64,000 nt of DNA from Marinitoga hydrogenitolerans DSM 16785 (GCF_900129175.1 NZ_FQUI01000001.1:1-64000), one strand, 5' to 3'; counted from the first letter of the stretch, positions 40,565-57,819 are shown. Notes: generated from the letters alone by a model not told the origin. Numbers and translations are program-made.

Positions 40565-40925
40565 GGGGACGAAACGGTTTCGACGGGGGTAGAGTAAGTC
40601 GGAAAGCGAGCCGTGGAAGACTGTTCCCACGTTAAATAATCGGTCAAAAAAGAGAATTGCCGAAGAAAATTACGCATTAGCTGCTTAATTTAATTAGCAG
40701 CCGTCCTTTCAATCGTTCTGGGTCAAATGGTTGAATAGGGCGTCATAATTATGACCCTTACCCAAAAACTTTTCTCCCGGGTTTTTGGGGAAACATTAGG
40801 GAGATAGCTTAATCTTATCCTGCCTGTGGGAGAAGATTAAGCAAAAAACAAAACACAGGCTGCGCTCGGAGACGTCCGGTTTACTCTACTTTCGGACGCG
40901 GGTTCGACTCCCGCCGTCTCCACCA
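40565..40925 (+). ncRNA. ssrA: tmRNA (ssrA)
   Basis: Transfer-messenger RNA rescues stalled ribosomes and tags the nascent chain for proteolysis. The 5' end GGGGACG pairs with CGTCTCC near the 3' end (acceptor stem, one G-U), and CCA is encoded. GGTTCGACTCC forms the T-arm, and GAAACGGTTTCGACGGGGG is the conserved 5' region. The tag frame ends ...AEENYALAA-stop (codons 40659-40688), with the familiar YALAA degron. The exact resume codon upstream (frame ...KKRI before AEEN) cannot be fixed by eye. Several pseudoknot-like GC hairpins lie between 40700 and 40860. About 361 nt. Confidence 0.96.
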
Positions 40926-40992: not shown

Positions 40993-41012
40993 AAAAAACG
41001 CCCTTAGAGGGC
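40993..41012 (-). terminator. Terminator of the Pel-like operon
   Basis: On the minus strand GCCCT, loop CTA, AGGGC, then GTTTTTTAT. It overlaps the final codons of the GT4 gene and closes the twelve-gene run. Confidence 0.82.
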
Positions 41013-42473
41013 ATTTTTATTATGTAAATATTCTAAAATTATTTTTTTATCAATATTTTTTTCTTTATTAAAAAAGAATTTTGGAATCTCCAAATAATTG
41101 ATTTTTTTGATAGGATTTTTCAAATATTTTTCTATTCTTTCAAGATACTTTTTTGCAGTAATTTCCCATGTAAAATTCTCAATAACTCTTTTTTTACCCA
41201 ATTCGGAATATTTTTTAAAATTTTCTAATCCTTCAATCATTCCATCTGCTATATTATTTTCATCAAATGGATCTATCAAAACTCCATATTTCCCTCTATC
41301 GAAAGCTTCCATTGGCCCACCATTTTTTGTAGCTACAATAGCCAATCCCACTGCTGCTGCTTCTATTGGAGCCAATCCAAACGGTTCATAGAATGCTGGT
41401 AAAACGAATATCGAATTTTTCTTTACAAAATATCTATACGCACTTGCTAATTCTTCCTGTCCCGGAACATCAAATAATGAAACTTTTCCCTTTAATCCAT
41501 AATCTTCTATTATTCTTTTTATTTCATCTATTATTTTCTGCTCTTTTTCTGATAATTTGTTTATATCTTCAAAACTGTTAATTAATCCTCTAACAAATAT
41601 TACAAGATTAGCTATTTGTTGAAGCTTTTTTGATTTTGCATAAGCTCTAATAGCTCCAAGATGATTCTTTTTTTCATCTACCCTACTTGACAATACTATA
41701 TATTGCTTATTTTTTTCTTTTATATCTCTTGATAAATATTTTTCTATTTTTTGCCAGAATTCTTTGTCCATTTCTTTCTTTTCTGAAGAAAATATGTTTA
41801 CATTAACACCTGGAGAAATCACTTCAAACTTATTATCATCATTAATATCTATTGCCTCTTCATATAATGGATGTGCATATTGTTCAAAACGCTCTAAATT
41901 AGTACTAACAATATTAAATGCTGAGCGGTTCATAGAAGTTCTTTCGGCATGAATCCTTATAGAGAAATTGTATTCTCTATCATAACTATCAAAGTTATGT
42001 ATATTTACACCTAGTTTATCTATTTTTTGTGCCCCTAAAGAATGCGCTGTAAATGAAAAAGGAATATTTGTTATTTCTTCAAAAATAGCTCCAGTAATTC
42101 CTCCATCCCCATAATGTGTCGTAATAAAATCCGGTTTTTGATTTATGTTTTTATAATATTTAAAAATACCTTCAGCAAATTCTTTTAAATAAGGCCAAAG
42201 TAATTCTTTTCTTAAAAATCTTTCTCCTCCAAATGGAATTCTAATAATTCTAAGATTTTTAGTGTCATCATAAGAATCAATATTTTCTTTAAATTCTGGC
42301 CAATTTTCATCATCTATTTTTCTTGTAAAAATATCTACAAACACTCCTAACTTTGATAATTCTTTAGCTACTTCTCTAACATAAATAAGTTGTCCACCAA
42401 AATCCTGGTGTTCCGTCAATCGTGAATTATTTTTATCAAAATTACCCTGTGGATTAAAAAACGCTATCCTCAC
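41004..42473 (-). CDS. Sucrose-phosphate-synthase-like GT4 glycosyltransferase
   Basis: The 489-residue protein matches GT4 enzymes of the sucrose- or mannosylfructose-phosphate synthase group. Features are HQDFGGQLIYVREVAKELSKLG with the sugar-phosphate-binding Gly-Gly, HYGDGGITGAIFEE, FTAHSLGAQK, NIVSTNLERFEQY, FEVISPGVNVNIF, ILSSRVDEKKNHLGAI and the donor-site LPAFYEPFGLAPIEAAAVG. No phosphatase domain is fused. The product may be a sucrose-like or mannosylfructose-like disaccharide phosphate, either a compatible solute or a glycan building block. It is the last gene of the Pel-like operon and overlaps the GH114 gene by four bases. Confidence 0.85.
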   Translation of the reverse strand: MRIAFFNPQGNFDKNNSRLTEHQDFGGQLIYVREVAKELSKLGVFVDIFTRKIDDENWPEFKENIDSYDDTKNLRIIRIPFGGERFLRKELLWPYLKEFAEGIFKYYKNINQKPDFITTHYGDGGITGAIFEEITNIPFSFTAHSLGAQKIDKLGVNIHNFDSYDREYNFSIRIHAERTSMNRSAFNIVSTNLERFEQYAHPLYEEAIDINDDNKFEVISPGVNVNIFSSEKKEMDKEFWQKIEKYLSRDIKEKNKQYIVLSSRVDEKKNHLGAIRAYAKSKKLQQIANLVIFVRGLINSFEDINKLSEKEQKIIDEIKRIIEDYGLKGKVSLFDVPGQEELASAYRYFVKKNSIFVLPAFYEPFGLAPIEAAAVGLAIVATKNGGPMEAFDRGKYGVLIDPFDENNIADGMIEGLENFKKYSELGKKRVIENFTWEITAKKYLERIEKYLKNPIKKINYLEIPKFFFNKEKNIDKKIILEYLHNKNAL

Positions 42474-43396
42474 TTTTTCACCTCATTTTTAAAATATTTT
42501 AATGCTTTTGATATGTCGTTTAACTTTCTATTTTTATTAGCTGGATAACCATAAAATCCATATTTATTACATAAATTAATAAAATCAAATATCTTTTCTT
42601 CATTAGGGTTTCCTGGATCATAAATATAATCTGTTACTAACACAAATTTATCAGAATTCTTAATTGTTAATATATATTTCAATCTATTAAAAATATATTT
42701 TTTAGATCTTTTATTTTCACCTTTATAAAACAAGCTTTCTACACCTATACCGGAAATTGTATTTAAATATTCATTATTATAATCATATTCCAATATATTT
42801 TCCGCATTCTGGGGAACAATTAAAAATGCAGGTTCTTTTTTTCTGGCATATTTTGCTATTTCTATAACAAATTTTATCATTTCTGATGCTGTTATTTCTT
42901 TATCATAACCTCTTTCAGCCCAATACACATAAGTATCTACTAAATCCAGATAAACACCCTTAAATCCTTGAGATATTATTTTATCTAAATAATTAAAAAT
43001 TATTTCTTTCCATTCATTATCCCAATACTTCACTTTATAATTCCCAGGCCAATTTGGATTCTCACCATCCAACCAACCTGGTGGATCATCATACCATTTA
43101 TTTTGCCAATAGTATCTATAATCTTCAGCTTCACCTATACTTAGATATGCCAAGGTTATTATCCCTTTTTCATTTAATCCTTGAATTTCAGAAAACGAAA
43201 ATTCATTTTCTTTGCTTCCATCTTTTGAATAATCAATTACTAAAAATTTTGGTTTGTAATAAATAGTAATATTATTTAAATTGATATGTGTTAATTGATA
43301 TATAACTGGAACTTCAACCTTTTCAATAAATAACGTAAAAAAGATTGGACTACTTATTATTGCTATCAAAAATATAATAATAATATACTTTTCCAT
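42470..43396 (-). CDS. GH114/TM1410-like glycosidase (PelA hydrolase-type)
   Basis: The 308-residue protein has an N-terminal membrane anchor or uncleaved signal (about 4-24) and a TIM-barrel glycosidase domain. The domain shows FLVIDYSKDG, GIITLAYLSIGEAEDYRYYW, PGWLDGENPNWPGNYKVKYWD, GFKGVYLDLVDTYVYW and FLIVPQNAENI. These motifs define the TM1410/GH114 group, which includes endo-alpha-1,4-polygalactosaminidase and is related to the N-terminal hydrolase domain of PelA in the Pel system. Here it is a stand-alone protein in the same operon as the PelA-type deacetylase, suggesting it trims or releases the polymer outside the membrane. Substrate by inference. Confidence 0.83.
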   Translation of the reverse strand: MEKYIIIIFLIAIISSPIFFTLFIEKVEVPVIYQLTHINLNNITIYYKPKFLVIDYSKDGSKENEFSFSEIQGLNEKGIITLAYLSIGEAEDYRYYWQNKWYDDPPGWLDGENPNWPGNYKVKYWDNEWKEIIFNYLDKIISQGFKGVYLDLVDTYVYWAERGYDKEITASEMIKFVIEIAKYARKKEPAFLIVPQNAENILEYDYNNEYLNTISGIGVESLFYKGENKRSKKYIFNRLKYILTIKNSDKFVLVTDYIYDPGNPNEEKIFDFINLCNKYGFYGYPANKNRKLNDISKALKYFKNEVKK

Positions 43397-43400
43397 ATTA

Positions 43401-44303
43401 TCACCTGTATTTTTCTCTTATTTTTCTCCAATCACTTAATGGTGCTATTGCTCCTAAATATTTTAATTTTTCTGCTGCAAAAGCCAATCCCAACTTTGTA
43501 GATTCTAATATTTCAAGGTCATTTATTATACCAGTATAAAACCCTGACCACACTGCATCGCCTGCACCTGTAACATCAACTACTTTTGTAGCATATGTTG
43601 AAAGATGAATTTCATATTTTTTATTATAAACTAAAACTCCATCTTTTCCCAAGGTAAAAAGAATATTTTTTATTCCAAAATTCTTAAAATATTTCACATA
43701 ATCCTCCAAAGATCTTTCACCAAAAATATTATTTGCATCATCTAAAGAAGGCTTTATGAAGTCAATATATGGACCTAATTTTTCCAAAACTTCTATTATA
43801 GTATAATTATTTTTCCATAACACTTTTCTATAATTTGGATCAAAACCTATTTTAATACCTTTTTCTTTTGCCAGTTCAACTAAATTTAATATTTTTTCAA
43901 GTTGTTTTGTTTCAGAAATAGCCCATGAGGAAATATGTATAATTTTAAATTTATTTATATTCAAGTCTTGTGGAATACTTAATTTTAAAGATGCGCTTCT
44001 GTAAGCTTTAAATTCGGGAGTACTTTCAGATTTATTTACAAAAACTATATCCGTATATACATCCTCTCTTTCACTTAAATAGTCTATTTTTACATTTTTT
44101 TCATTTAAATAATCTTTTATATATTTCCCAAAAGGATCTTTACCAACAGTAGATAATATATAACTCTCTATTCCTTGACGAGCAATATTTATTGCAATAT
44201 TAGACGGTGAACCGCCAAAAAACTTTTGGAAAACGGTTGCATTTTCTAAAGAATTAGACTGCGTAATCATATCAATTAATACTTCACCTATTGATAAAAA
44301 CAT
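43401..44303 (-). CDS. PfkB-family sugar kinase (fructokinase-like)
   Basis: Ribokinase-fold kinase of about 300 residues. It begins MFLSIGEVLIDMI, has the N-terminal substrate motif FFGGSPSNIAINIARQG, VGKDPFGKYI, IGFDPNYRKVLW, and the C-terminal PfkB signature VVDVTGAGDAVWSGFYTG with the catalytic Asp in GAGD. It most resembles bacterial fructokinases/2-keto-3-deoxygluconate kinases. An in-frame start at 44342 lies inside the previous gene; AAGGAGAG before ATG 44303 decides the start. With the SPS-like GT4 it could interconvert fructose and fructose 6-phosphate. Confidence 0.88.
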   Translation of the reverse strand: MFLSIGEVLIDMITQSNSLENATVFQKFFGGSPSNIAINIARQGIESYILSTVGKDPFGKYIKDYLNEKNVKIDYLSEREDVYTDIVFVNKSESTPEFKAYRSASLKLSIPQDLNINKFKIIHISSWAISETKQLEKILNLVELAKEKGIKIGFDPNYRKVLWKNNYTIIEVLEKLGPYIDFIKPSLDDANNIFGERSLEDYVKYFKNFGIKNILFTLGKDGVLVYNKKYEIHLSTYATKVVDVTGAGDAVWSGFYTGIINDLEILESTKLGLAFAAEKLKYLGAIAPLSDWRKIREKYR

Positions 44304-44304
44304 T

Positions 44305-45093
44305 TTATCTCTCCTTATAAAAATTTGGTTTTCTATCATCAAAAATATTATTATATTTATTTAATTTTTTGTTTAATGCTTCTTCCGGATCAATCTCTAC
44401 AACCTTTACTTTATCACCTTTTTTTGGAAATCTTATTATTACTTCCCCTTTTGGATTTGTTATTTGACTCATTCCTGTAAATTCATTTGAATTTAAAACA
44501 TTAACTTCTTCACCCCATCTATTTGAAGTAACTATAAACACTTTATTCTCTAAAGATCTTATCTTGTTAGCTTCCTGACAATATGGCATTACTAAATTCG
44601 CACTATGCGCAATTATTTGAGCTCCTTTTAAAGATAATGTTCTAAAAGATTCTGGGAAAAACCAATCAAAACATATAGCTAGACCTACTTTTACTCCATT
44701 TACATTTTCAACCCAAAAACCTGTATTCCCATTTTCAAAAAACAACTTTTCTTCATAAAACAAATGTGTTTTTCTATATATTCTGTGACTTCCATCGCTT
44801 TTTATCAATATGGAAGAATTAAAAAATAAATTCTCTTCTTTTTCTACAAATCCAAAAACCACATTTGTTTTTTTAGATATTGCAAAGTCTTTAAATGCTC
44901 TTATAGAAAAACCATTTTTATTTTCAGAAACCCATTCTACTTCATTTTTGGTATTAAAAGTATAACCAGTAAAAGCTAATTCAGGAAAAACAAATAAATC
45001 TGCATTTACATTTTTTATTAAATTTATACCTCTTTCAACATTCTCTTTTACTTGAAAGAGCTCTGGTCTAAATTGAACTAATCCTATTTTCAT
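44305..45093 (-). CDS. Carbon-nitrogen hydrolase (nitrilase superfamily)
   Basis: The 262-residue amidohydrolase has the Glu-Lys-Cys triad of the superfamily: Glu in FPELAFTGY, Lys in RIYRKTHLF, and Cys in GLAICFDWFFPES. Relatives include omega-amidases, N-carbamoyl amide hydrolases and deaminated-glutathione amidases; the substrate cannot be read from the sequence. Its ATG overlaps the cyclo-ligase stop by four bases and it ends two bases before the PfkB kinase, so it is firmly within the operon. Confidence 0.88.
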   Translation of the reverse strand: MKIGLVQFRPELFQVKENVERGINLIKNVNADLFVFPELAFTGYTFNTKNEVEWVSENKNGFSIRAFKDFAISKKTNVVFGFVEKEENLFFNSSILIKSDGSHRIYRKTHLFYEEKLFFENGNTGFWVENVNGVKVGLAICFDWFFPESFRTLSLKGAQIIAHSANLVMPYCQEANKIRSLENKVFIVTSNRWGEEVNVLNSNEFTGMSQITNPKGEVIIRFPKKGDKVKVVEIDPEEALNKKLNKYNNIFDDRKPNFYKER

Positions 45094-45635
45094 AAATTAT
45101 CACCTTTTATAATTCTTTTTTCTGTAATAATAACATCCATTTTTATATCATGATTATACGTTGGAACATCTTTTAATATCTGAAAATCAAAAGCTGTTCC
45201 AATTAATAAGCCTTTTTTATATTTTGAAAAATATCTATCATAATAACCTCCACCATATCCAAGCCTGAACAATCTTTCATCAAATGCTATTCCTGGAATT
45301 AAAAATATATCTATTATTTTATTATAAATCTCTCCAACAGGTTCCATTATACCATATTTTCCTTTTTCAAACTCATCAAAAGAAGATATTTTTACAAAAT
45401 ACATATCCTTTCCTTTTATTTTAGGAAATAATATATCCTTATCTTTTAATAAATCAATTAAATTTAACAAATCCACTTCTTTTCTAAATGGATAATACAT
45501 AGCTATACTTTTAAATTTTCTATTTTCTATATATTTTAAAATATTCGTTCTTATCAAATAGCTGTATCTATCATACATATCTTTTTCTAAACTCATTCTT
45601 TTTTTTAGCATTACTTTTCTTATACCATCTTTCAT
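45090..45635 (-). CDS. 5-formyltetrahydrofolate cyclo-ligase
   Basis: MTHFS (YgfA type) converts 5-formyl-THF to 5,10-methenyl-THF with ATP. The 181 residues show an N-terminal basic helix, AMYYPFRKEVDLLNLI, FPKIKGKDMYFV, DIFLIPGIAFDERLFRLGYGGGYYDRYFSK (phosphate-binding Gly-rich loop) and a DVIITEKRII end, all typical. It overlaps both neighbours by four bases, an unusual place for a folate gene within an exopolysaccharide cluster. Confidence 0.95.
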   Translation of the reverse strand: MKDGIRKVMLKKRMSLEKDMYDRYSYLIRTNILKYIENRKFKSIAMYYPFRKEVDLLNLIDLLKDKDILFPKIKGKDMYFVKISSFDEFEKGKYGIMEPVGEIYNKIIDIFLIPGIAFDERLFRLGYGGGYYDRYFSKYKKGLLIGTAFDFQILKDVPTYNHDIKMDVIITEKRIIKGDNL

Positions 45636-47935
45636 TGAACCACACCCAAAAACTCTATTTTCATAATATTATTCTTCATTTCAAGAATATACAAATTATT
45701 TTTGCGATAATAATGAATAACTCTTCCACCACTAATTTTTCTTATCGCCATCTTTGATTTTATCATAAAATATTTTGGAAACAATGATGAATCAGGAAGA
45801 ATTATCTCTAAAATATTATTCTTCCAATAATATTTAACTTTTTGTGTTAAATAATCAAAGAAATATGGGTATGCTTCAGATGCTGTTTGATTTCTAAGCC
45901 ATGGAAATTTTGTTTTTATTGTATTATAAAATTCTTCTAAATTAGAATACATTTCATCCCATGTCTTATTTTGTGGATTCCTATCTTCCGCAAACAAATC
46001 ATCTGGATGTATGAAATGTTGGAAAGAACCAAAATTTGCTAAAGTATTTATTGTGGTTAAATATATTCTACTTAAAGGATAATATCCATAAGTAGAACGT
46101 GGAATAACTAATACAAAGTTATCCTTAATTAAATATTCAGAAAAATTATTTTTACTTTCATAACTTGTTCCAATTGTTTTTATAGTCGGAAGAGATTTTA
46201 ATAAATATTTAGCTCCAAAATCATCAATTAAATTGTTTGGCGCAACATAACTACTTATTATTATAGGATGTCCCAATATCTTGCTGAGAAATTTTTTGGT
46301 TGCTTCTAAACTTAAAATAATATTTTCCGAATTTGCCCATCTATCTTTAGTTAATGAATTATGATTATATCCATGTAACCCCAATTCAAATTCTGAATTA
46401 TCAATTTCTTTCATAGTTTTATACGGATTATTATTTTTACTAATAAAAAACTCTGTAAATTCAAAAGGTGGAACACTTGAACCATTATAACTTAAAGGTG
46501 TGACTATTGTATATTTTATATTATATTTTTCTGCAAATTTTTTTATTGCCGGCCACCAAATATTATAATAATATTCATCATCTGTAATTTTATTACCTTT
46601 ATTATCGCTTTTTTCAATATTATAGGAAGGCAAAGGGAAATCATCTATATAAAAAATAAAAGAATTTAATATACCGGAAATTGATACTTCTTGCATCTCA
46701 AGAATTGTTTGTAAAATTAACCCTCTCAATTCCTTTAAAATTATATCTGGATATATATAACCAATATAACCACTTTTTTCTTTTTTATACCATATGATTG
46801 GAATTTCCGCATTATTTTCATTACTTAAATAAGCTAAAATCGTTTCTTCTTCTGTAAGTTGTATATCAAAAGATAAATTATAATATCTTTTAAGTATAGT
46901 TTCACCATTATTATTATTTCCTATTGGAAAAAGCTTATTTGAAAATATTATTTTTGTGATGTTTATATTATTTTCTTCTATGCTACTTTTCCATGGAGTG
47001 TTATTTAATATCGTGGAAAATATAAAAGAACCGCCATTTTCAATAAATCTTTTAATTGTTTTAGTTTTAACGTATTTCGCATCTGTATTCCATATTATGT
47101 ATTTATATGGAAGTAAATCTATAAAGGATAAATTATAAAAATCATCTACATTAATCGCTTCAAAATTAATCTTAGCATAATCAAATATTTTATATAATTC
47201 TTTTTGTGATTTTAGATACCTCTCATTATCATATTTTGTTTTTATAATTAAAACCTTATTCTCCACACCAACTTTTCTGTTTAATAACTTTAAGATTAGC
47301 TTTTCAATATTTAAAATAATATTACCTTTTTTATCTATAAAACTTCCAAAAAGAGCCCCTCCTCCATTATCCGATAAAACAATCATAGGATATATATTAT
47401 CTTTTACTTCATAAGATAATATTACATCTTCATCACCAAAAATGTTATACTTTTCTACTGGCTGTTTTATAGTTGATGATGGTATAGTTAAAAAATATTC
47501 ATCTTCATAATTTATCTCATATTTTTCCAATTCTTTATATCCATACATATAATGCATACCAATTTTATTTAATAAATTATTTATCTCTCTAATATCAGAT
47601 GTGACACCCAAATTATTAAAGAAAAAGAAAAAACCGCCATTCTCTACAAAAGAAGCTAATTGCCTTAAATATAAATGAGAATTATTTAAAACTGGAGAAT
47701 AATACCAACTAATTACTCCAAAATACTTATTGCTATCAATTCTATAATAATTTAAGTCTTCTACATTTTTCAATTCATAATTTATTTTATATTTTTCCAA
47801 AACAGGAATTACATGGTATTTGAACATATATTCTCCATATTCTTCTGAGCTCTTATAAAGTAAAAGTAAATTCTTTTGAGGAAATAATGAAATAGTTGTA
47901 AAAAAAATTAGAATTATTAAAAAAAGTTTTTTCAT
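45632..47935 (-). CDS. PelA-type polysaccharide deacetylase (DUF2194-like)
   Basis: A 767-residue exported protein. A signal peptide (1-19) is followed by two similar Rossmann-like, amidotransferase-type domains (about 20-220 and 225-415), each containing a FVENGGxFFF or FIENGGSFIFS motif. A carbohydrate-esterase-4-like domain (about 420-660) has the metal site D431-D432 (FIFYIDDFP) and H521/H525 (LGLHGYNHNS). This is the arrangement of PelA minus its glycosidase. By analogy it deacetylates an amino-sugar polymer during export. It sits directly behind pelG with overlapping start and stop. The deacetylase triad looks intact. Confidence 0.82.
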   Translation of the reverse strand: MKKLFLIILIFFTTISLFPQKNLLLLYKSSEEYGEYMFKYHVIPVLEKYKINYELKNVEDLNYYRIDSNKYFGVISWYYSPVLNNSHLYLRQLASFVENGGFFFFFNNLGVTSDIREINNLLNKIGMHYMYGYKELEKYEINYEDEYFLTIPSSTIKQPVEKYNIFGDEDVILSYEVKDNIYPMIVLSDNGGGALFGSFIDKKGNIILNIEKLILKLLNRKVGVENKVLIIKTKYDNERYLKSQKELYKIFDYAKINFEAINVDDFYNLSFIDLLPYKYIIWNTDAKYVKTKTIKRFIENGGSFIFSTILNNTPWKSSIEENNINITKIIFSNKLFPIGNNNNGETILKRYYNLSFDIQLTEEETILAYLSNENNAEIPIIWYKKEKSGYIGYIYPDIILKELRGLILQTILEMQEVSISGILNSFIFYIDDFPLPSYNIEKSDNKGNKITDDEYYYNIWWPAIKKFAEKYNIKYTIVTPLSYNGSSVPPFEFTEFFISKNNNPYKTMKEIDNSEFELGLHGYNHNSLTKDRWANSENIILSLEATKKFLSKILGHPIIISSYVAPNNLIDDFGAKYLLKSLPTIKTIGTSYESKNNFSEYLIKDNFVLVIPRSTYGYYPLSRIYLTTINTLANFGSFQHFIHPDDLFAEDRNPQNKTWDEMYSNLEEFYNTIKTKFPWLRNQTASEAYPYFFDYLTQKVKYYWKNNILEIILPDSSLFPKYFMIKSKMAIRKISGGRVIHYYRKNNLYILEMKNNIMKIEFLGVVQ

Positions 47936-49350
47936 TATTTTTCCTCCATTAATTTTTTTATATCCCTATAATAAATGTAAAATCCTTTTTTTACCAATAA
48001 TTTTTGTCTATAATATTCTATTTGTATTAAATTTTCAATTTTCGTGAATAATATTTTGTATCCCAAAAAAACTCCTAAAGCAAAAGCAATTGAATAACTT
48101 GCACCTAAAGAATAAAACCCAAATTTTTTTATGAAAAATACACTTAAAATAAAATTAATTACAAACACAAAAATATTTAATAACAATGCATAATTTCTAA
48201 AATCAAAATACAACAATAGCAACATAATCATTAAGTAAAAAGAGTTTAACATTGCGCCAATTAATCCCAATCTTAAAATAGATTTAAAAATTTCAGGGAC
48301 AAAAGGTAAAAGATTCAATTCGTTTAATATAAATAAAGAAAATGTAAATAGCATTTGTGCTTTAACTGTCAATATTATATCAAAGTTTAATTCTTTTTCC
48401 ATGTCGTTTTTCCTTATTTCTATTTCTGAATAATTATATCCTTCAATTAATGAATTATAAAACAATTTATATTTTTTATAAAACCGTGTTTCTAAAACCA
48501 ATATAAACATTGTTGCCGTCGGTATTATAGTTAAATAAGCTAAAAACATAGGACTATCATATATATATGAAAAGCGAAATCCATTTAAAGGCATTTCACC
48601 AAATTCTTTAGAATTCCAAGTTACGAAATCATCAATCCATAAAGCCAAATAATATGTAAAACCAATGAAAATATTTTGCCAATATTTATTTATTTCTTTT
48701 GTCCATTCAAAAGAAATATTAGTCTCCTCACCGAAATATATTAAGGTAATTAAATAATGAACAAATGTTCCAATATTTACTCCAAATGCATATCCTAAAA
48801 TATAACCTATTGGATTTTCTTCAGTTCCAAGAAAATTAGATAAAATTATTGAAAAAAAGGCCATTATAACATAAGCAAGTATATACCAATTAACAGCATC
48901 GGTAGAAACAGAAGAAACTGAAATTAACCATAACGTTAATAATGAAACAGACAAATAAATAAATGAAAGTTCAAACCATATTTCATTTTTGTTAAATGTA
49001 AAAAAAATCATTATAACTAAGATCATTAACAACGAACTATATAAAATCATTCCCAATACTTCAGGTAAAATTTTTTTATATTTTTTCAAAAAAATTAAAT
49101 CAGAAATTCTTCTCGATTCAAACATAACAAATAATCCGGAAAAAATAATAGAGATAACGAAGGAATATACAATAGCCACATTAAAATACAGATTTGTTAT
49201 TTTAAATAAATTTAATATTATCCATAATGATAATGTGGTAATTATCCAAGGACCAGAAGAGATTATAACAGAATATGCTACAGCCAATAGATCGGTTGAA
49301 ACACCACCTTCGTGAAACATTTTAGTTAATCTAAAACCAACCCCAGCCAT
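47935..49350 (-). CDS. pelG: PelG-like polysaccharide transporter
   Basis: The 471-residue polytopic protein has about 12 membrane helices. Its N-terminus MAGVGFRLTKMFHEGG, then SVIISSGPWIITTLSLW, matches PelG, the MOP-superfamily inner-membrane protein thought to move the Pel polymer or its precursor across the membrane. Further PelG-like segments are FESRRISDLIFLKKY, TYYLALWIDDFVTWNS and a C-terminal basic tail. It starts one base after pelF and overlaps the deacetylase gene, matching the pelF-pelG order in known loci. Confidence 0.9.
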   Translation of the reverse strand: MAGVGFRLTKMFHEGGVSTDLLAVAYSVIISSGPWIITTLSLWIILNLFKITNLYFNVAIVYSFVISIIFSGLFVMFESRRISDLIFLKKYKKILPEVLGMILYSSLLMILVIMIFFTFNKNEIWFELSFIYLSVSLLTLWLISVSSVSTDAVNWYILAYVIMAFFSIILSNFLGTEENPIGYILGYAFGVNIGTFVHYLITLIYFGEETNISFEWTKEINKYWQNIFIGFTYYLALWIDDFVTWNSKEFGEMPLNGFRFSYIYDSPMFLAYLTIIPTATMFILVLETRFYKKYKLFYNSLIEGYNYSEIEIRKNDMEKELNFDIILTVKAQMLFTFSLFILNELNLLPFVPEIFKSILRLGLIGAMLNSFYLMIMLLLLYFDFRNYALLLNIFVFVINFILSVFFIKKFGFYSLGASYSIAFALGVFLGYKILFTKIENLIQIEYYRQKLLVKKGFYIYYRDIKKLMEEK

Positions 49351-49351
49351 T

Positions 49352-50758
49352 TCATTCCACCACCGAAAAATATAATTCTTTATAATTTTTTATCATTTGA
49401 TCTAATCTATATCTTTTTTTTACACGGATTTTTGCTATTCTTGATGCATTAATTCTAAATTCATCATCTTCATATAATTTTATCAAGCCGTTAGCTAATC
49501 CCACAAAATCTTTTGGTTTTACAATGATTCCTGCATTACCTATAATATCTTCCTTTGTTCCATAAACCATTTCAGAACATGAACCAACATCAGTTGCAAC
49601 TACAGGAATTCCGACTGAAAATGCTTCCAATATTACCAAAGGTTGTCCTTCACTAACGCTTGACAAAAGCAGCGTGTTGATATTCGTATAATATTTTAAC
49701 ACATTAACTTTTCCAGTGAACTCTATTGTATTTTCTAATTGAAAAACCTTAATCATCTCCAGACACTCATTATAGTATTCGGGTTCTTCATCTATTGGTC
49801 CAATTATTAATAATTTAAAATTAGGTATTTTTTCTTTTACCATCTTTGCAGCTTTAATTGCAGTTTTTATATCTTTAATTTCAACAACCCTACCTACTAA
49901 TCCAACAATATACGGATCTTTTTCTTTTCTATATTCTAGCTGTGAAAATTTGTCATAATCAACACCATTCGGTATAATACACATCTTATTTGTATCATTA
50001 CATAATTCCTTTTCAAAAAATTGGTTTTTTAAAAATAGGGTTGTTATTTTTTTAGAACCCTTATATACAAGAGCACTTATTGTGTTAAATAATTTAATCC
50101 ATGCTATTCTATACTCATCTTTTATCCATCCTGCTTTTAATACTTCTAATTGTCGCTCTCTATGATAAATTCCATGTTCTGTTAATATAACAGGTTTATT
50201 ATTTTTTATCCCATTCATAACTGCAACAATTCCTGCATATCCTGTAGTTATAGTATGGTACACATCACATTTTGGCAAGTCAACCGTCATTGAATTCAAA
50301 AAAGGTAACAACATTGATTGCAAAGTCCAAAAATAGTTAGTAAAATTTTCATATGGTATATATGCTTTGTAGAAATTTAACATTACATCCCAATAAATTT
50401 TTGATTTTAAAATACTTGTAAAATCATAATCATTATATTTTTGGAAAAGATCATATAAATTTTCAGCTATAGATTTTTCATCAAATGGGTATCTTAAAAT
50501 ATTTTTTAATTTATTACCAAAATCTTTAGTAATTTTCCTCTTATACTTAATAGTATAATTTGCAAACAAAAAATATTCAAAATAATCTACAACATTTTCT
50601 GGAAACAAATATTTTGGTTTTCTTATTTCTGGAGTAGCTCCAATATGAATGACACAAAATTCAACATCTTTCATACTTTTTATTAAAGTGTTTCCCCAAC
50701 TTGAAACACCACCAGTTACGTAAGGATATGTTCCCTCAAAGATAAGCCCTACTCTCAT
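49352..50758 (-). CDS. pelF: PelF-like glycosyltransferase (GT4)
   Basis: A soluble cytoplasmic GT4 enzyme of 468 residues. The N-terminus VGLIFEGTYPYVTGGVSSWGNTLI is the PelF hallmark. Further motifs are DVYHTITTGYAGIVA, ILTEHGIYHRERQLEV, CIIPNGVDYDKF, VGLVGRVVEIKDIKTAI, and the donor-site LLSSVSEGQPLVILEAFSVGIPVVATDVGSC (E-x7-E type). PelF polymerises the Pel backbone from UDP-amino sugars. GTG 50767 is in frame, but AAGGGTG places ATG 50758 at six bases. It is immediately upstream of pelG. Confidence 0.9.
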   Translation of the reverse strand: MRVGLIFEGTYPYVTGGVSSWGNTLIKSMKDVEFCVIHIGATPEIRKPKYLFPENVVDYFEYFLFANYTIKYKRKITKDFGNKLKNILRYPFDEKSIAENLYDLFQKYNDYDFTSILKSKIYWDVMLNFYKAYIPYENFTNYFWTLQSMLLPFLNSMTVDLPKCDVYHTITTGYAGIVAVMNGIKNNKPVILTEHGIYHRERQLEVLKAGWIKDEYRIAWIKLFNTISALVYKGSKKITTLFLKNQFFEKELCNDTNKMCIIPNGVDYDKFSQLEYRKEKDPYIVGLVGRVVEIKDIKTAIKAAKMVKEKIPNFKLLIIGPIDEEPEYYNECLEMIKVFQLENTIEFTGKVNVLKYYTNINTLLLSSVSEGQPLVILEAFSVGIPVVATDVGSCSEMVYGTKEDIIGNAGIIVKPKDFVGLANGLIKLYEDDEFRINASRIAKIRVKKRYRLDQMIKNYKELYFSVVE

Positions 50759-50759
50759 A

Positions 50760-51344
50760 TTATTCACCCTTGATATTAATATATTCTATAATAAGTTTTA
50801 TATTGTCAATTTCAGTTTTGGTAAAATACTTGTAAAAATTTTGAATTTTTTCAGGAAAAAATAGATTTAACATGTATAAAAATAGCATTTTTTCTTTTTC
50901 TGATGATTCTTTTAATACTGCTTCTAAGTATTTTTCATTTTTAGAAAGTAGATAAGTTACTATTTTTTCATTTAAGGACATATCTTTTGTAAAGGTGAAA
51001 AGATAACTTGAATTCGAAAAATCTTTAAGAGAATTAAATAAAAAATCAAATTTCAATTTTTGTGCATATTTAAAAGTTTTATTATCTTTTAAAACATTAG
51101 AAATAGAAATAAGTTGATTTATAAGAATTAAATCTTTTTCGGTATAAAATTGTTTATTTTTAAGTTTTGACAAAATTTCTCTTTGTTTAATATATGAAGA
51201 ACGCTTATTCCAAGATAGAGTTTTTATATAATCTGGATCAAAAGAATAATGAAATTTGTAATTAAAAATTATAATTAGTAAAATCAGCATAATAGTGAGA
51301 AAAAAAAGCACATAATAAGGTGAAAAAATTTTTTTCACATTCAT
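50760..51344 (-). CDS. Unknown single-pass membrane protein in the Pel-like operon
   Basis: 194 residues, unrecognised. One membrane helix near the N-terminus (about 10-28, YYVLFFLTIMLILLIIIF) with basic residues before it, then an all-helical, Lys/Leu-rich soluble part (about 45-190) with no cysteines or obvious catalytic motif. It lies two bases after the PelE-like gene and just before pelF. It may be a second TPR-like scaffold piece, that is, a split or duplicated PelE; inference only. Confidence 0.7.
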   Translation of the reverse strand: MNVKKIFSPYYVLFFLTIMLILLIIIFNYKFHYSFDPDYIKTLSWNKRSSYIKQREILSKLKNKQFYTEKDLILINQLISISNVLKDNKTFKYAQKLKFDFLFNSLKDFSNSSYLFTFTKDMSLNEKIVTYLLSKNEKYLEAVLKESSEKEKMLFLYMLNLFFPEKIQNFYKYFTKTEIDNIKLIIEYINIKGE

Positions 51345-51346
51345 AG

Positions 51347-52294
51347 TTATCCTCCCAATATATATTTTAAAGACTCATTTTTTGGTTTAAATCCTAACTT
51401 AATGTATTCAGATATTAATTCTTTTACAATAAAAAACTTTTTTTGTTTGATATAATAAAAAATAGCATACTCAAATATTTCCTGAGCTTTAAATTTTTTT
51501 ATTTTTTTATTTAATAATTCTTCAATTGTTCTAAAATCTTTTAAAGACTCAAGTATCCTTAATGTATATATTATCAATCTTGGGCTATCAGGATATGTAT
51601 TGATAACATTCTTTAATATTTTATAAGATTTCATTAGAATTTCATTTTTGTATTCCCCAGCTAAAAACCCAGAATTCGCATAATAATAGATATATTTTGC
51701 ATAATTGATATAGTTTTCTAATGAATTAAGGTTTTCGCTATAAAATGAAATTTTAGAAATTAAAAAATTTTCTAAATTTGTCAATGCATCTGATGCATAT
51801 AAAAGAACATCAGGGTGTAAATCATCACTTAATGCTTTGCGTATTAAATTTACACCTTCTATAAAATCCATTTTTTCAATTTTTATTGAGTTGAAAACGA
51901 ACCTTACAACATATTTTCTTTGTGCAGGATCTCCATATTTTATAATAGTATTAAAAGGAGCTAAATCTATTGATAAATATTTTATATTTCTTGTTTCAAT
52001 TAATTTATGTTCAGAAACTTCTATAGGTTTATATAAAGGTTTTAAATCAACTTTTTTAAAAAAAAATATTACTGGAAAAAAAGGGAAAAAAACAAAAAAT
52101 AATAAATTTTTTGCTAATTGAAACTTAATACTCTCATCTTTATCATAATTGATAAAAATGGATATTAGATAATAAACAAAAACTAAAATGATTCCAAAAA
52201 AATATCTTTTTAATACAAATAAAAAGATACTTAAAACCCCACTGATTAATGAAATAATTATAAAGATGTATACAAAAAGCCTTTTATTACTCAT
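51347..52294 (-). CDS. PelE-like membrane protein with TPR-type helices
   Basis: 315 residues. The first 85 hold two or three membrane helices (about 7-26, 33-48, 66-82). The rest is helical in repeating pairs typical of TPR or Sel1-like scaffolds (for example YSENLNSLENYINYAKYIYYYANSGF and LRILESLKDFRTIEELLNKK). PelE is an inner-membrane TPR protein that couples PelD to PelF. Position between PelD-like and PelF and the TM+TPR layout fit PelE, but sequence identity cannot be judged by eye. It overlaps the PelD-like gene by eight bases. Confidence 0.65.
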   Translation of the reverse strand: MSNKRLFVYIFIIISLISGVLSIFLFVLKRYFFGIILVFVYYLISIFINYDKDESIKFQLAKNLLFFVFFPFFPVIFFFKKVDLKPLYKPIEVSEHKLIETRNIKYLSIDLAPFNTIIKYGDPAQRKYVVRFVFNSIKIEKMDFIEGVNLIRKALSDDLHPDVLLYASDALTNLENFLISKISFYSENLNSLENYINYAKYIYYYANSGFLAGEYKNEILMKSYKILKNVINTYPDSPRLIIYTLRILESLKDFRTIEELLNKKIKKFKAQEIFEYAIFYYIKQKKFFIVKELISEYIKLGFKPKNESLKYILGG

Positions 52295-53504
52295 CTTTTG
52301 AGTAAGCCTCCTGAATATTTATATAAGCATATTTTTCTAAGTTCTCTTTTACTCTTTTTAAACCTTTGGCAGAACATGAGGTTAAAATTATTTTAAATTC
52401 TTTTGTTTTTTCATCTAAAAACAAGAAATCTGTATCTCTTATAAATGATCTGATTTCTTCTACAGAAAATTTTTTATCATAAGTTCCACTTATAATAGAA
52501 TATGGAATTTTGAATTTTTTAAATCTCTCCTCTATTTTTTCTAAAATTTTATTAAATTTTTTCATTTGGTAAAACATAGTATTATCATTATCTTGATTTA
52601 ACTCTTTGGACGCAAGTAGAAGAGTACCTAACCAATCAGACAATATTTTTAAATAGGTTTCAGTATTTTTATTTATTTTTTCTGGATCAATAACTTCTAC
52701 TGTAATAAAACCCAATACTTTATTATTGTCTGTTATACTAACTGCCATTGCAGGTTCATATTCAAAATTAAATTCTGTTTCTGTTAAAAACAGAACATTT
52801 GATGTCGCACTTCCAAATTCTTTTGCTGTAGATATAACAATAGACTTATCTACAGCAAAAGAATTTGGTAAAAATTGTTCTCCTTTTCGAACTTTTAACC
52901 GCAAAAAATTGTTTTTATTTAAAATGTATATAGAAACTGTTTTTGCATAAATAAATTCCGAAATTAGATCTATAGCTTCATTAAAAATATCTTCTGAATT
53001 ATTATACTCAATATCTTTTAATTTTTCAACTAATAAAGACAATCCCTGTTTTTCTAAAATAAGTTTATGTTCGAGATCATCAGTTATATTTTTATATTTT
53101 CTAATATCATCTTCTAAATCATCAATTCTGCTTTTTAATAATTTTATTTGATCATATTGTAATTCAATTTGTTGAATATAAATATCTCTAAAAAAACCTA
53201 TAATAAAACCAAGAGAAAATATAAAAAGTGGTATTTTTAAAATTTCCCAAGAAATAATTACATTGAAAAAATCATTTTTCACACTAAAAAAGACAGATAA
53301 AAAAACATATAATGTACTTATTACTCCAACTAAAATCGTTAAATTAATTCCATATCTAACAGCAATAAAAAGTGAAAATATGAAATAAGGATTAGGATTA
53401 AAAAAAACATAACCAAAATATTTATTTGTTAGATCTAAGACAAAAAGAAAGGTTAATATTATGAATATTTCTATATATTTATATAAATTTTTACTTAGTT
53501 TCAT
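52287..53504 (-). CDS. PelD-like c-di-GMP receptor
   Basis: 405 residues. Four membrane helices (about 10-110), a coiled coil (about 112-160), a GAF domain (about 165-310) and a shortened GGDEF-like domain (about 318-400). In the last, RDTD (356-359) occupies the inhibitory-site RxxD position; five residues later, where GGDEF should be, stands EKTKE, followed by FKIIL as in real GGDEF proteins. The domain therefore cannot be a cyclase but can bind c-di-GMP, exactly the PelD design. It would switch polymer synthesis post-translationally. ATGA overlap with the PilZ gene. Confidence 0.85.
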   Translation of the reverse strand: MKLSKNLYKYIEIFIILTFLFVLDLTNKYFGYVFFNPNPYFIFSLFIAVRYGINLTILVGVISTLYVFLSVFFSVKNDFFNVIISWEILKIPLFIFSLGFIIGFFRDIYIQQIELQYDQIKLLKSRIDDLEDDIRKYKNITDDLEHKLILEKQGLSLLVEKLKDIEYNNSEDIFNEAIDLISEFIYAKTVSIYILNKNNFLRLKVRKGEQFLPNSFAVDKSIVISTAKEFGSATSNVLFLTETEFNFEYEPAMAVSITDNNKVLGFITVEVIDPEKINKNTETYLKILSDWLGTLLLASKELNQDNDNTMFYQMKKFNKILEKIEERFKKFKIPYSIISGTYDKKFSVEEIRSFIRDTDFLFLDEKTKEFKIILTSCSAKGLKRVKENLEKYAYINIQEAYSKDE

Positions 53505-54178
53505 TTCTTGCCCTCTCTATCTTTGTGTTTTGATTTTATAGTATACAAGTTAATATATTGTACAATTTTTTTCTCTATTTTATAATCAATAGTAATAAAT
53601 TTCATACCATATATTTTTTCATTATATATATTATCTCCAACAAATCTAACAACCCTTGCTTTTATATTTTCTAAAAAGAGATTTTTATCTATTAATAATT
53701 TTTTCAATGTATATTGTTTTTCTTTATATAATGTTTCTCTTAAAACTATTTGTATTCCCCCTGCGCTAAAATCTCTTGTTTCAAATGGAATATTTTTATT
53801 ATTTTCATTATCGAGTAATAAACCTTCTCTAATTATAGGAATTCTATAAAAAAGTCTTTTTTGAATTTTAAATGCTATAGAAGGTAAATACACCAATATG
53901 TTTTCTTTCTCTACTTTTAAAAGTTTAGATTTAATTACTATATTTGATGAATTCTCATATATTCTCATATTTAATGTTTCTCCAGGAAATAACTTTAACC
54001 TTGAATTTCTATATATTGGTGGCAATATTTGTGCAATTTTCGAAGAAAAATCTAAGGAAATAATCCTGCTATTTCCTATGATATGCTGTTTTGGAATCTC
54101 TACATCGATTAAATCTCCAATAGACAATATTTTCCTCACTTTTATTTTTTCAATAAAAACGCTTTCATTATATTTCAT
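53501..54178 (-). CDS. PilZ-domain protein (YcgR-like)
   Basis: 225 residues, soluble. An N-terminal YcgR-type beta domain (about 10-100) precedes a PilZ domain (about 105-215) with both ligand motifs intact: RxxxR at R108-R112 (RLFYR) and DxSxGG at 136-141 (DFSAGG). It should bind c-di-GMP. As first gene of the operon, with an AAGGAG-type site before ATG 54178, it is made together with PelD-like, giving two receptors of the same messenger. It may act on the flagellum, as YcgR does, or on the glycan machinery. Confidence 0.88.
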   Translation of the reverse strand: MKYNESVFIEKIKVRKILSIGDLIDVEIPKQHIIGNSRIISLDFSSKIAQILPPIYRNSRLKLFPGETLNMRIYENSSNIVIKSKLLKVEKENILVYLPSIAFKIQKRLFYRIPIIREGLLLDNENNKNIPFETRDFSAGGIQIVLRETLYKEKQYTLKKLLIDKNLFLENIKARVVRFVGDNIYNEKIYGMKFITIDYKIEKKIVQYINLYTIKSKHKDREGKK

Positions 54179-54221: not shown

Positions 54222-54230
54222 ATTATAACA
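54222..54230 (-). promoter_or_regulatory. Extended -10 promoter of the Pel-like operon
   Basis: Minus strand TGTTATAAT. The -35 position (about 54245-54250, ACATAT) is poor and falls inside an inverted repeat. Confidence 0.6.
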
Positions 54231-54356: not shown

Positions 54357-54425
54357 TAAACATGGCATAGTGTTGCTAATATTAATATGAAACAAAAATT
54401 AAAAATTATTACAGGAGGTAAAAAA

Positions 54426-55658
54426 ATGAAAAAAGTTGCAGTTACAGGTATAGGTACTATTAATTCTATAGCAAAATCAAAAGAAGAATTTAAAGAAAAA
54501 CTAAAAAAAATGACTATAGGTATAGATAACATTACTCAATTTGACACAACAAATCATAAAGTAAAAATTGCTGGTGAAGTTAAAGAATTTGAGCCAACGT
54601 TATATATGGACAAAAAAACTGCAAAGAGATATGATAGGTTTTTGCAATTTGCTATTGCTGCATCTAAAGAAGCTTTGGAAGATAGCTCTTTGGACGAAAA
54701 CGGTGAATGGAAAGAAAATGCTGCTGTTATAGTATCATCTGGTATTGGGGGATTTAAAACATTATATAAAGAATTTTTAAAAATGGAAAAAAAAGGACCT
54801 AAAGTTGTAAGTCCATTTTTAATCCCAATGATGATATCAGATATGGCTTCTGGTGTTGTTTCTATAGAATTTGGAATAAAAGGGCCTAATTTTAATACTG
54901 TTAGTGCTTGTGCATCTTCTTTACACGCAATAGCTATAGGAAGTATGTTAATTAGACATGGTTATGTGGACGTTGCTATTGTTGGTGGCGCAGAAGCTAC
55001 AATTGATCCAATGCCAATTGCTGCTTTTGCAAATATGAAAGCGTTATCTACAAGAAATGATGACCCTAAAAGTTCCTCCAGACCATTTGATAAAAATAGA
55101 GATGGTTTTGTAATGGGTGAAGGTGCTGGAGTTATTGTCTTAGAATCCGAAGAACATGCTAAGAAAAGAAATGCTAATATATACGGATTTATTGAAGGAT
55201 TTGGAATGAGTGGTGATGCCTATCATATAAGTGCTCCCGACGTTGAAGGTAAAGGCGCTGCAAAAGCTATTAAATTAGCGCTAAATGATGCAAAAATTGA
55301 ACCAGAGAAAATAGAATTAGCAAACTGCCATGCTACATCAACTCCAGCTGGTGACGTTGCAGAAACACGTGCTTTAAGAAATGCTTTAGGAGAACATGCT
55401 AAAAATATATTTATCCAAGGATCTAAAACATTATTTGGACACGCACTTGGTGGAGCTGCTGCTATTGAGTTTGTTGGTCTTGTTTTACAAATGAAAGAAG
55501 GTTTTATTCATGGAATGCCAAATTTAATAGAAGCTGATGATGAGTTAAAAGACTTAAAAATCCCAAAAGAAACTATTGATTTTAAAGCAAAATACGCTAT
55601 TAAAAATTCGTTTGGTTTTGGAGGACATAATGTTTCTATAGTATATAGAAGCTTATAA
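54426..55658 (+). CDS. fabF: Beta-ketoacyl-ACP synthase II
   Basis: FabF elongates acyl-ACP in fatty-acid synthesis. The 410 residues carry VTGIGTIN at the N-terminus, the catalytic Cys in NTVSACASSLHAIAIG, GGAEATIDP, the Cys-His-His partners in CHATSTPAGD and GSKTLFGHALGGAAAIE, and NSFGFGGHN near the end. An in-frame ATG at 54387 lies upstream, but CAGGAGGT (54412-54419) and the family N-terminus MKKVAVTG fix ATG 54426. First gene of fabF-degV-fabZ-fabH-like-fabK-fabD. Confidence 0.97.
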   Translation: MKKVAVTGIGTINSIAKSKEEFKEKLKKMTIGIDNITQFDTTNHKVKIAGEVKEFEPTLYMDKKTAKRYDRFLQFAIAASKEALEDSSLDENGEWKENAAVIVSSGIGGFKTLYKEFLKMEKKGPKVVSPFLIPMMISDMASGVVSIEFGIKGPNFNTVSACASSLHAIAIGSMLIRHGYVDVAIVGGAEATIDPMPIAAFANMKALSTRNDDPKSSSRPFDKNRDGFVMGEGAGVIVLESEEHAKKRNANIYGFIEGFGMSGDAYHISAPDVEGKGAAKAIKLALNDAKIEPEKIELANCHATSTPAGDVAETRALRNALGEHAKNIFIQGSKTLFGHALGGAAAIEFVGLVLQMKEGFIHGMPNLIEADDELKDLKIPKETIDFKAKYAIKNSFGFGGHNVSIVYRSL

Positions 55659-55671
55659 GGAGATGATTAAA

Positions 55672-56517
55672 ATGAAAGTAGGCATAGTAACTGATAACAC
55701 GTGTAATTTACCGATAGATTATTTAGAAAAAAATGATATTGGATATACTTCTCTTTACATACTAAGGGAAAGCAGGCATATAAAGGCTGTTGATTTGTGC
55801 CCAACGACTTTTTATGAAGAATTGAAAGTGGGATCTTATGTTCCACTTACTTCACAACCATCTGTAAAAGATTTTGAAGAAGTCTATAGAGCTATGCTTC
55901 AGAGATATGATTATCTAATTACGTTAACTATCTCAGAAAAATTAAGTGGAACTTTAAACTCTGCAAGACTTGCTGCATCAATGGTTGACGAAAAAAGAAT
56001 TTTTGCTATTGATAGTAAATTAACAAGTTTCGGATTAGGTTTTTTAGTCTTAGAGTTAAAAGATAAGATTGAAAGTGGAAAATATTCTATAGAACAATTA
56101 ATTGAATACTCAATAAATTTTCATACTACCATAAGAACAATATTTAGCGTGACAAATTTAGATTATTTATACAAAGGTGGAAGAATTGGAAAAGCAAAAG
56201 CCTTAATGGGAGGACTACTCAATATGAAACCTATTCTTTCATTAATTGATGGAGAAATCATTCCTGTAAAAAGCGTAAGAGGAATAAATAAAATGATTAA
56301 AGAGGTTGTTAATCATGCAATGGACAGGATAGATTCTTTAAGATTAAAAAAAATTGCTGTAATACATACAAGTAATTTAAAATATGGTGGACTAATTATT
56401 GAAGAACTCAGAGAACGCGGAAAAAATGACGATGATATTATATATTCTTTACTAGATCCTGTAATTGGTACTCATTTAGGACCTGATGCTGTGGGAGTGA
56501 TTACCCAATGGGAATAA
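55672..56517 (+). CDS. DegV-family fatty-acid-binding protein
   Basis: DegV proteins bind a fatty acid; in Gram-positives FakB members present it to the kinase FakA. The 281 residues have the family features VGIVTDNTCNLP, VPLTSQPSVKDFEEVY, TLTISEKLSGTLNSARLAA, the ligand-contacting Ser/Thr cluster, and GGRIGKAKALMGGLLNMKPIL. ATG 55672 follows AAGGAG. Its place inside the fab operon suggests recycling or sensing of acyl chains. No FakA (Dak-type kinase) gene is in the window. Confidence 0.92.
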   Translation: MKVGIVTDNTCNLPIDYLEKNDIGYTSLYILRESRHIKAVDLCPTTFYEELKVGSYVPLTSQPSVKDFEEVYRAMLQRYDYLITLTISEKLSGTLNSARLAASMVDEKRIFAIDSKLTSFGLGFLVLELKDKIESGKYSIEQLIEYSINFHTTIRTIFSVTNLDYLYKGGRIGKAKALMGGLLNMKPILSLIDGEIIPVKSVRGINKMIKEVVNHAMDRIDSLRLKKIAVIHTSNLKYGGLIIEELRERGKNDDDIIYSLLDPVIGTHLGPDAVGVITQWE

Positions 56518-56936
56518 TGAATATTGATGATATAATGAAAATTTTACCTCATAGATATCCTTTTTTGCTTGTAGATGGTGTAATTGAAATGAATGATAAA
56601 AAAATTGTTGCATATAAAAATATTAGTATTAACGAACCACAATTTCAAGGTCATTTCCCAAATTATCCTATTATGCCCGGTGTTTTGATAATCGAAGGAT
56701 TAGCTCAAACTGCCGGAATACTTTTAATGAATGATTTGAAAGAAAGTTATATCCCTTTATTTCTTGGTATTGATAAAGCCAGATTTAAAAAAGAAGTCAG
56801 GCCTGGAGATAAATTAATATATGAAATAGAAATATTACAAGAAAAAATGGGAATGTTTAAATTAAAGGCCACTGCTAAAGTTGAAAATAAAATCGTCACC
56901 TCTGCAGAATTAATGGTTGGAATAAAGAAGGGATAA
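56508..56936 (+). CDS. fabZ: 3-hydroxyacyl-ACP dehydratase FabZ
   Basis: Hot-dog-fold enzyme removing water from 3-hydroxyacyl-ACP. The 142 residues show ILPHRYPFLLVD with the catalytic His, GHFPNYPIMPGVLIIEGLAQTAG with the catalytic Glu, and ARFKKEVRPGDKL. ATG 56508 overlaps the degV end by ten bases; ATG 56517 is a possible alternative, but the GGGAG site is nearer the first. One base before the FabH-like gene. Confidence 0.96.
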   Translation: MGIMNIDDIMKILPHRYPFLLVDGVIEMNDKKIVAYKNISINEPQFQGHFPNYPIMPGVLIIEGLAQTAGILLMNDLKESYIPLFLGIDKARFKKEVRPGDKLIYEIEILQEKMGMFKLKATAKVENKIVTSAELMVGIKKG

Positions 56937-56937
56937 T

Positions 56938-57819
56938 ATGATTATATCTCAAATAAATGCCTTTGTGCCTGAAAAAATATTAGATAATAAGACTTTATCT
57001 AAAAAATTTAATGTTTCTGAAGAATGGATTTATAAAAGAACTGGTATAAAAAAAAGGTATATTTCAGACATGGATGTTTTCCAAATGGGAATAAATGCAG
57101 CTTCTTCTCTTAATCTTGATGGTGTTGATACTATTCTTTTTGTCTCTTCAATAGGAGCTCATTACGTTCCTTTTTATGTTCGAGTTTTTGAAAAATTAAA
57201 ATTAAAAAAATTACATTATGGTATAGATATATCAAATGGATTTGTTGGTTTTATAACTGCTTTACATGTGGCAGATGTTATGTTTAGAGAAAATATAGCA
57301 AACAAGATTCTGATTATTGTATCAGAAAGATTATCTGAACTTGTTGAAGATAAGGATATCAACACTGCAATATTATTTTCCGATGCATCTGTTGCTATGA
57401 TTTTAGAAAATCACGATAATTATATTTGTGATCATAAAGTTATGTATGATCCAAATTATCTTGATGCTTTAAATATTAATGAAAACAAAAAAATAATTAT
57501 GGATGGAAAAAGAGTGTATAAATTCGCTGTTAATAATATGAAAAAAATAATAAATAAATATATTGAAAATTATGAAAAGAAAATAATTGTTCCCCACCAA
57601 GCCAATAAACGTATTTTAGAAAGCGTAAAAAAATCGTTTAACGACTTAGAGTTTTTAGATATAATAGAAGATTATGGAAATACCGGTGCAGTTAGTATCC
57701 CTTTAACTTTATTTAAAACATACGGAAATTCAAAAATTCAATTAAAAGATCATTTATTAATTTCCGTTGGGGGTGGAATGACCACATCAGCAATTACTTG
57801 GAGGTGCATTGATGAATAG
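56938..57819 (+). CDS. FabH-like ketoacyl synthase with catalytic Cys replaced by Phe
   Basis: The 293-residue thiolase-fold protein aligns along FabH: WIYKRTGIKKRYIS near the start, and the C-terminal His and Asn sites intact as VPHQANKR (H220) and DYGNTGAVSIPLTL (N248). The nucleophile segment, normally DxxAACxGFxYAL, reads DISNGFVGFITAL, so Phe102 stands where the Cys should be. No other Cys is near (only C164 and the penultimate region). It is therefore unlikely to perform normal acetyl-CoA condensation. It may be a decarboxylating primer-forming enzyme or a non-catalytic partner. It is shorter than typical FabH (about 315-330). Confidence 0.88.
   Translation: MIISQINAFVPEKILDNKTLSKKFNVSEEWIYKRTGIKKRYISDMDVFQMGINAASSLNLDGVDTILFVSSIGAHYVPFYVRVFEKLKLKKLHYGIDISNGFVGFITALHVADVMFRENIANKILIIVSERLSELVEDKDINTAILFSDASVAMILENHDNYICDHKVMYDPNYLDALNINENKKIIMDGKRVYKFAVNNMKKIINKYIENYEKKIIVPHQANKRILESVKKSFNDLEFLDIIEDYGNTGAVSIPLTLFKTYGNSKIQLKDHLLISVGGGMTTSAITWRCIDE

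Follow-up and report, generated by a model that had tools for sequence, protein, structure and literature searches.

A Pel-family operon of Marinitoga hydrogenitolerans with a predicted deacetylase of the PelADA type and a predicted GH191 hydrolase

A run of twelve closely packed genes in the heat-loving bacterium Marinitoga hydrogenitolerans DSM 16785 resembles known pel operons, raising the question of whether it is a true Pel locus, which of its genes belong to that system and how its product would pass an envelope with two membranes. The locus was analysed within a 64,000-nucleotide stretch of the genome (NZ_FQUI01000001.1:1-64000; 'the window'), taken from an assembly of 87 contigs and 2.31 Mb. 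We conclude that the locus truly belongs to the Pel family, that it is composed as in Gram-positive bacteria although the phylum is diderm, and that its inner-membrane core is complete. It very likely works, as set out below, as an exopolysaccharide locus of the pelDEFG type, to which a deacetylase of the PelADA type and a separately encoded GH191 hydrolase belong.

Layout of the operon and its distribution in Thermotogota

Twelve contiguous minus-strand ORFs run from 54178 to 41004, abutting or overlapping, with intergenic gaps from gene 1 to gene 12 of -4, -8, +2, -8, +1, -1, -4, -4, -38, +4 and -4 bases. This bears out the original prediction of twelve genes each within five bases of, or overlapping, the next: all the ORFs are present and the largest gap is +4. 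The -38 value rests on a TTG start for the PfkB gene, whose true start is more likely an internal ATG. Of the neighbours, FabF (54387, plus strand) is divergent and tmRNA (40565-40925, plus strand) convergent. FabF begins a divergent fatty-acid gene group (54387-57819), with FabF, a DegV protein, FabZ and a FabH-like gene in a row. The tmRNA gene, on the opposite strand just downstream of the operon, scored 208.9 bits and was the sole match of an RNA family search, which turned up no riboswitch and no further RNA family within the operon or upstream of it. The window also encodes a 1706-residue protein (34098-39218), possibly a surface protein, which is rich in fibronectin-type-like repeats and bears a lipoprotein-like signal.

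A promoter had been placed near 54222. Promoter-like sites were no more frequent than chance in this AT-rich region (117 found versus 112 expected in shuffled sequence), so that this promoter is unproven. A terminator had been placed at 40993-41012. A probable intrinsic terminator (40994 to 41012, minus strand) can be read directly as GCCCTCTAAGGGC followed by TTTTTT, that is, a GCCC/GGGC hairpin with six T at about 41012-40994, overlapping the last stop codon, although terminator-like sites in the region were likewise at chance level (3 found versus 2.7 expected).

Conservation of the locus was surveyed in a sample of 103 Thermotogota genomes. PelG was found above cut-off in 40 genomes, all 40 of which also had PelF above cut-off; PelF occurred without PelG in a single genome. 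All 35 genomes in which DUF2194 exceeded its cut-off have PelG (p 1.7e-22), as do 24 of the 27 with GH191 above cut-off (p 5e-10); both P values treat related genomes as independent. When contigs were scanned for PelG, an alignment query returned 32 loci and a single-sequence query none. PelD was present in 39 of the 40 PelG genomes. The exception, G067, belongs to a Fervidobacterium-type genus; an HNH-endonuclease-like ORF (IscB-like by eye; locus L067, 7742-9016) stands there in the place expected for PelD, and the flanking PelG and PelE are both truncated, so that this pel locus looks disrupted.

The order PelD-PelE-(U)-PelF-PelG-DUF2194-GH191 is found again in further genera and families of Thermotogota. 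Together with the near-identical genome sets for PelG, PelF, PelD and DUF2194, this indicates that the gene order is not due to chance, and a chance array of genes was dropped as an explanation. The synteny is that of the core, whereas PilZ and most of the trailing enzymes stand at pel loci only in the genus Marinitoga. Scattering of the genes in relatives had been named as evidence against a Pel locus, and it was seen in one form: Fervidobacterium-type genomes carry PelG-PelD-PelE apart from an adjacent PelF-DUF2194 pair. All parts are nevertheless retained, showing that the locus can split without losing them. Three loci of a Thermotoga-type genus (L046, L058 and L062) hold two tandem PelG-PelD-PelE-PelF sets, with DUF2194 beside one only.

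The Pel core, PilZ and gene U

The original prediction of a Thermotogota Pel-type locus encoding PilZ, PelD, PelE, PelF, PelG and a deacetylase was upheld by family, HMM and fold matches. PelF and PelG lie far above their cut-offs, and the PelD fold is that of Pseudomonas aeruginosa PelD. The GT4 glycosyltransferase PelF (49352 to 50767, minus strand) matched NF038011 with 368.9 bits against a cut-off of 100, the next best family reaching 97 bits; the membrane exporter PelG (47935 to 49350, minus strand) matched PF16933 with 374.3 bits against a cut-off of 29. These two identities are unambiguous.

PelD (52287 to 53504, minus strand) is more divergent. A Pfam search of the window protein did not recognize PelD, and the Pfam PelD_GGDEF model gave weak matches in two of 24 relatives (best E 0.19). 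A PDB sequence search with the PelD profile found no PelD either, in contrast to the fold search. Among 350,542 PDB chains, the top seven matches to the AlphaFold model (pLDDT 84) were all P. aeruginosa PelD, the c-di-GMP complex included (E 9e-9 to 1e-7); TM-scores were low, perhaps reflecting differing domain placement. A Thermotogota family profile recovered the PelD of Nitrospira at 1e-22, that of Elusimicrobia at 1e-17 and that of Legionella at 1e-9; Pfam assigns the Legionella protein to PelD_GGDEF (89 bits). P. aeruginosa PelD requires the RxxD residues R367 and D370, plus R402, to bind c-di-GMP (PMC2170427). In the window protein the corresponding I-site is RDTD (residues 356-359), whose R356 and D359 are invariant in 24 of 24 sequences and align with the RxxD of PelD from other phyla. 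Model and motif thus point to a PelD with membrane helices, a GAF domain and a degenerate GGDEF domain bearing RxxD.

The following gene (51347 to 52294, minus strand) encodes N-terminal membrane segments and a helical, HEAT/TPR-like domain, and no Pfam family matched it above cut-off. It stands directly after PelD in nearly every locus, and in two other phyla its family HMM matches the gene that follows PelD, at 6e-8 in Nitrospira and at 9e-7 in Elusimicrobia. Cross-phylum match and position support its assignment as PelE, if less strongly than for the other core members. Tandem duplicates of PelE were observed in two Marinitoga-genus genomes (L036, 13612-15496; L039, 5496-7386).

Gene U (50760 to 51344, minus strand) encodes one N-terminal membrane helix and an all-helical domain (AlphaFold pLDDT 84). 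U matched no Pfam or NCBIfam family and no PDB sequence, and a fold search of the PDB yielded no match either, the best E being 1.6. Homologues occupy the same locus position in several genera and families, and from this placement we would guess that U is a structural part of the Pel complex. The idea that U is a shortened PelE was rejected, there being no profile relationship between the two.

The operon's first gene (53501 to 54178, minus strand) encodes a PilZ-domain protein of YcgR-like architecture (PilZNR plus PilZ), above cut-offs for both PF07238 (43.9 bits) and PF12945 (23.7 bits). At pel loci it was found in the genus Marinitoga only, in seven genomes. Its RxxxR (108-112) and DxSxGG (136-141) motifs are kept in all intact copies. 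It is therefore a probable c-di-GMP receptor and might provide a second c-di-GMP input. In the long-read assembly of Marinitoga lauensis (L035 and L070), PilZ, PelD, PfkB and the sucrose-phosphate-synthase-like gene are broken by frameshifts or stops, probably through sequencing errors.

Deacetylase, hydrolase and the trailing genes

The gene after PelG (45632 to 47935, minus strand) encodes a 767-residue DUF2194 (CE26) protein (PF09960, 587.8 bits), whose profile found a single PDB entry, 9ZAU (E 3.5e-66). This entry is Bacillus cereus PelADA, a de-N-acetylase of GalNAc polymer that is needed for Pel (PMC13254593). Residues named in that paper were mapped with a chain numbering offset of 25: D262, D263, H350 and H354 correspond to Marinitoga D431, D432, H521 and H525, and R458, H488 and D491 to R613, H643 and D646. 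All seven Marinitoga residues are invariant in 18 Thermotogota sequences. The protein is accordingly predicted to be a PelADA-family polysaccharide de-N-acetylase with an Asp-His-His metal site, and a function can be proposed for DUF2194 across the phylum. The PelA-type deacetylase foreseen at this position is a deacetylase, but of the Gram-positive PelADA type rather than a GH166 plus CE21 PelA. The Thermotogota proteins carry about 200 extra N-terminal residues forming an additional alpha/beta domain, which is possibly a second copy of the carbohydrate-binding domain (hhalign P 9e-6, probability 83%).

The penultimate gene (42470 to 43396, minus strand) had been read as a GH114 glycosidase and counted as an odd extra. 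It encodes instead a membrane-anchored member of the MJ1477/TM1410 family (TIGR01370, 306.9 bits, cut-off 181; E 6e-71 to TM1410 structures). TM1410 was assigned in 2025 to the new CAZy family GH191, an environmental-sample member of which cut Pel with a preference for GalN-rich stretches; TM1410 itself (TmGH191), tried only on the fungal polymer galactosaminogalactan, showed neither binding nor cleavage, and the study did not settle its substrate (PMC12054363). The invariant D151 and E220 of the Marinitoga protein match the putative catalytic D156 and E225 of TmGH191, which together with the overall homology identifies it as a GH191 enzyme. Both this protein and the DUF2194 enzyme have N-terminal membrane or lipoprotein-type signals.

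GH191 adjoins pel genes in many Thermotogota. In one locus (L043), a gene whose protein shows 100% identity with TM1410 across 323 residues stands in divergent orientation next to DUF2194-PelG-PelD-PelE. Outside the phylum, Devosia, Pelagibacterium and a Rhizobiales MAG likewise carry GH191-type genes close to PelF-PelG (L083, L085, L089, L091, L092, L098, L099 and L101), indicating that the link extends beyond Thermotogota. GH191 is thus probably the hydrolase partner of Pel and is predicted to cut the polymer. For TM1410, an orphan enzyme of solved structure, this context names a substrate to try, the product of the neighbouring pel genes, and makes the question of 2025 testable.

The remaining genes encode, all on the minus strand, a 5-formyltetrahydrofolate cyclo-ligase (45090 to 45635; PF01812, 126 bits), a carbon-nitrogen hydrolase of the nitrilase family (44305 to 45093; PF00795, 124.6 bits), a PfkB-family sugar kinase, fructokinase/KDG-kinase-like (43401 to 44342; PF00294, 179 bits), and a sucrose-phosphate-synthase-like GT4 transferase (41004 to 42473; TIGR02472, 309.6 bits, below the 576 cut-off). 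The original prediction saw here a Pel operon expanded with unusual enzymes. In such a reading they would form a pathway of their own for modifying the polymer or supplying its precursors. Their overlapping genes share the operon, and PfkB and the synthase-like gene are gained or lost together among the seven Marinitoga-genus loci. Yet the cyclo-ligase, PfkB and synthase-like genes accompany pel in these seven genomes only, and the nitrilase additionally in two other genera of the family, where it lies downstream of pel after two unrelated genes. PfkB and the synthase-like gene are missing from one species (G042) that keeps the rest of the locus with its whole Pel core, and the cyclo-ligase and nitrilase belong to general metabolic families. 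Such a pathway is thus highly improbable and the expansion weakly founded; the four genes, most of which accompany pel in this genus only, are probably passengers. The idea of a distinct sucrose pathway belonging to Pel was likewise dropped for lack of conservation.

Polymer, export and relation to known systems

In the mechanism that we propose, diguanylate cyclases would raise c-di-GMP, which would bind the PelD I-site and possibly PilZ too. PelD, PelE, PelF and PelG would form an inner-membrane complex in which PelF polymerizes UDP-GalNAc that a GalE-type epimerase provides, with PelG as the exporter of the chain. The DUF2194 enzyme, membrane-tethered or secreted, would strip some acetyl groups from the emerging chain, and the anchored GH191 enzyme would trim the partly deacetylated product. 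The genome encodes 17 GGDEF matches and a GalE match of 466 bits. The literature searched contained no biochemical proof from Thermotogota.

The same machinery could instead make a different amino-sugar polymer, for example a GlcNAc-rich or mixed one, on which the GH191 and deacetylase specificities have diverged. The inactivity of TmGH191 on the fungal GalN polymer, which it did not bind (PMC12054363), would fit such a product, as would a warning, in a 2020 operon survey, that divergent operons may not yield the same polymer (PMC7112194). Against this, PelADA, the closest solved deacetylase, acts on alpha-1,4-GalNAc and its catalytic residues are all kept; another GH191 cuts Pel (PMC12054363); and the genome encodes the GalE-type epimerase. 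We therefore regard a different polymer as unlikely, if a serious contender, and favour a GalNAc-based Pel product.

Where this product would end up is a separate matter. Thermotogota are diderm, with a swollen periplasm. The PelB outer-membrane beta-barrel (PF24604) was found in none of the 103 Thermotogota genomes, while the same model matched, as a positive control, in Legionella and Desulfurobacteriaceae genomes with pel loci; a Legionella PelB query gave no match in the M. hydrogenitolerans genome, and the operon contains no PelC-like gene. The missing barrel, the roomy periplasm and the N-terminal signals of the deacetylase and GH191 would suit a polymer that is periplasmic or tied to the outer toga, rather than a secreted biofilm matrix. 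An unrelated outer-membrane pore could serve, however, and the 17 GGDEF domains, like the PelD I-site, speak for a biofilm-type product under switchable control. We consider a periplasmic polymer rather improbable. Similarly doubtful, as a composite, is a PelB-free Pel system of two-membrane Thermotogota that would either build a periplasmic matrix between cell and toga or use an unknown pore, with U as a new complex component. With a Gram-positive-style Pel system and no known pore, this diderm phylum directly poses the question of the outer-membrane step.

The 2020 survey had already noted Pel operons in Thermotogae (PMC7112194), so that the Marinitoga locus is a variant of a known system. 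The survey text consulted names only the phylum and does not describe the deacetylase type, the GH191 link, PilZ or the lack of PelB. We claim as new only the composition of the locus, its link to GH191, PilZ, gene U and the lack of the known pore. With P. aeruginosa pelABCDEFG the locus shares the PelD fold and RxxD motif, PelE, PelF and PelG. It differs in having no PelB barrel found and no PelC-like gene in the operon, and in carrying separate DUF2194 and GH191 genes in place of the GH166 plus CE21 PelA fusion.

The pelDEADAFG operon of B. cereus ATCC 10987 (PMC7112168, PMC13254593) also combines PelD, PelE, a PelADA-family deacetylase, PelF and PelG in one operon, and the two systems have in common a hydrolase encoded by a separate gene and the absence of PelB. 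In Marinitoga, in contrast, the host is diderm, the order is D-E-U-F-G-ADA with the extra gene U and with PilZ first, the deacetylase is longer by its additional N-terminal domain, and the hydrolase is a GH191 enzyme inside the operon. For biofilm work, the finding supplies candidates for thermostable Pel deacetylases and hydrolases. Thermotoga maritima TM1410 (PDB 2AAM and 9EUX; PMC12054363) shares its family and the putative catalytic Asp and Glu with the Marinitoga GH191, which differs in lying inside the operon and in having a hydrophobic N-terminus, not a lipobox, as its anchor.
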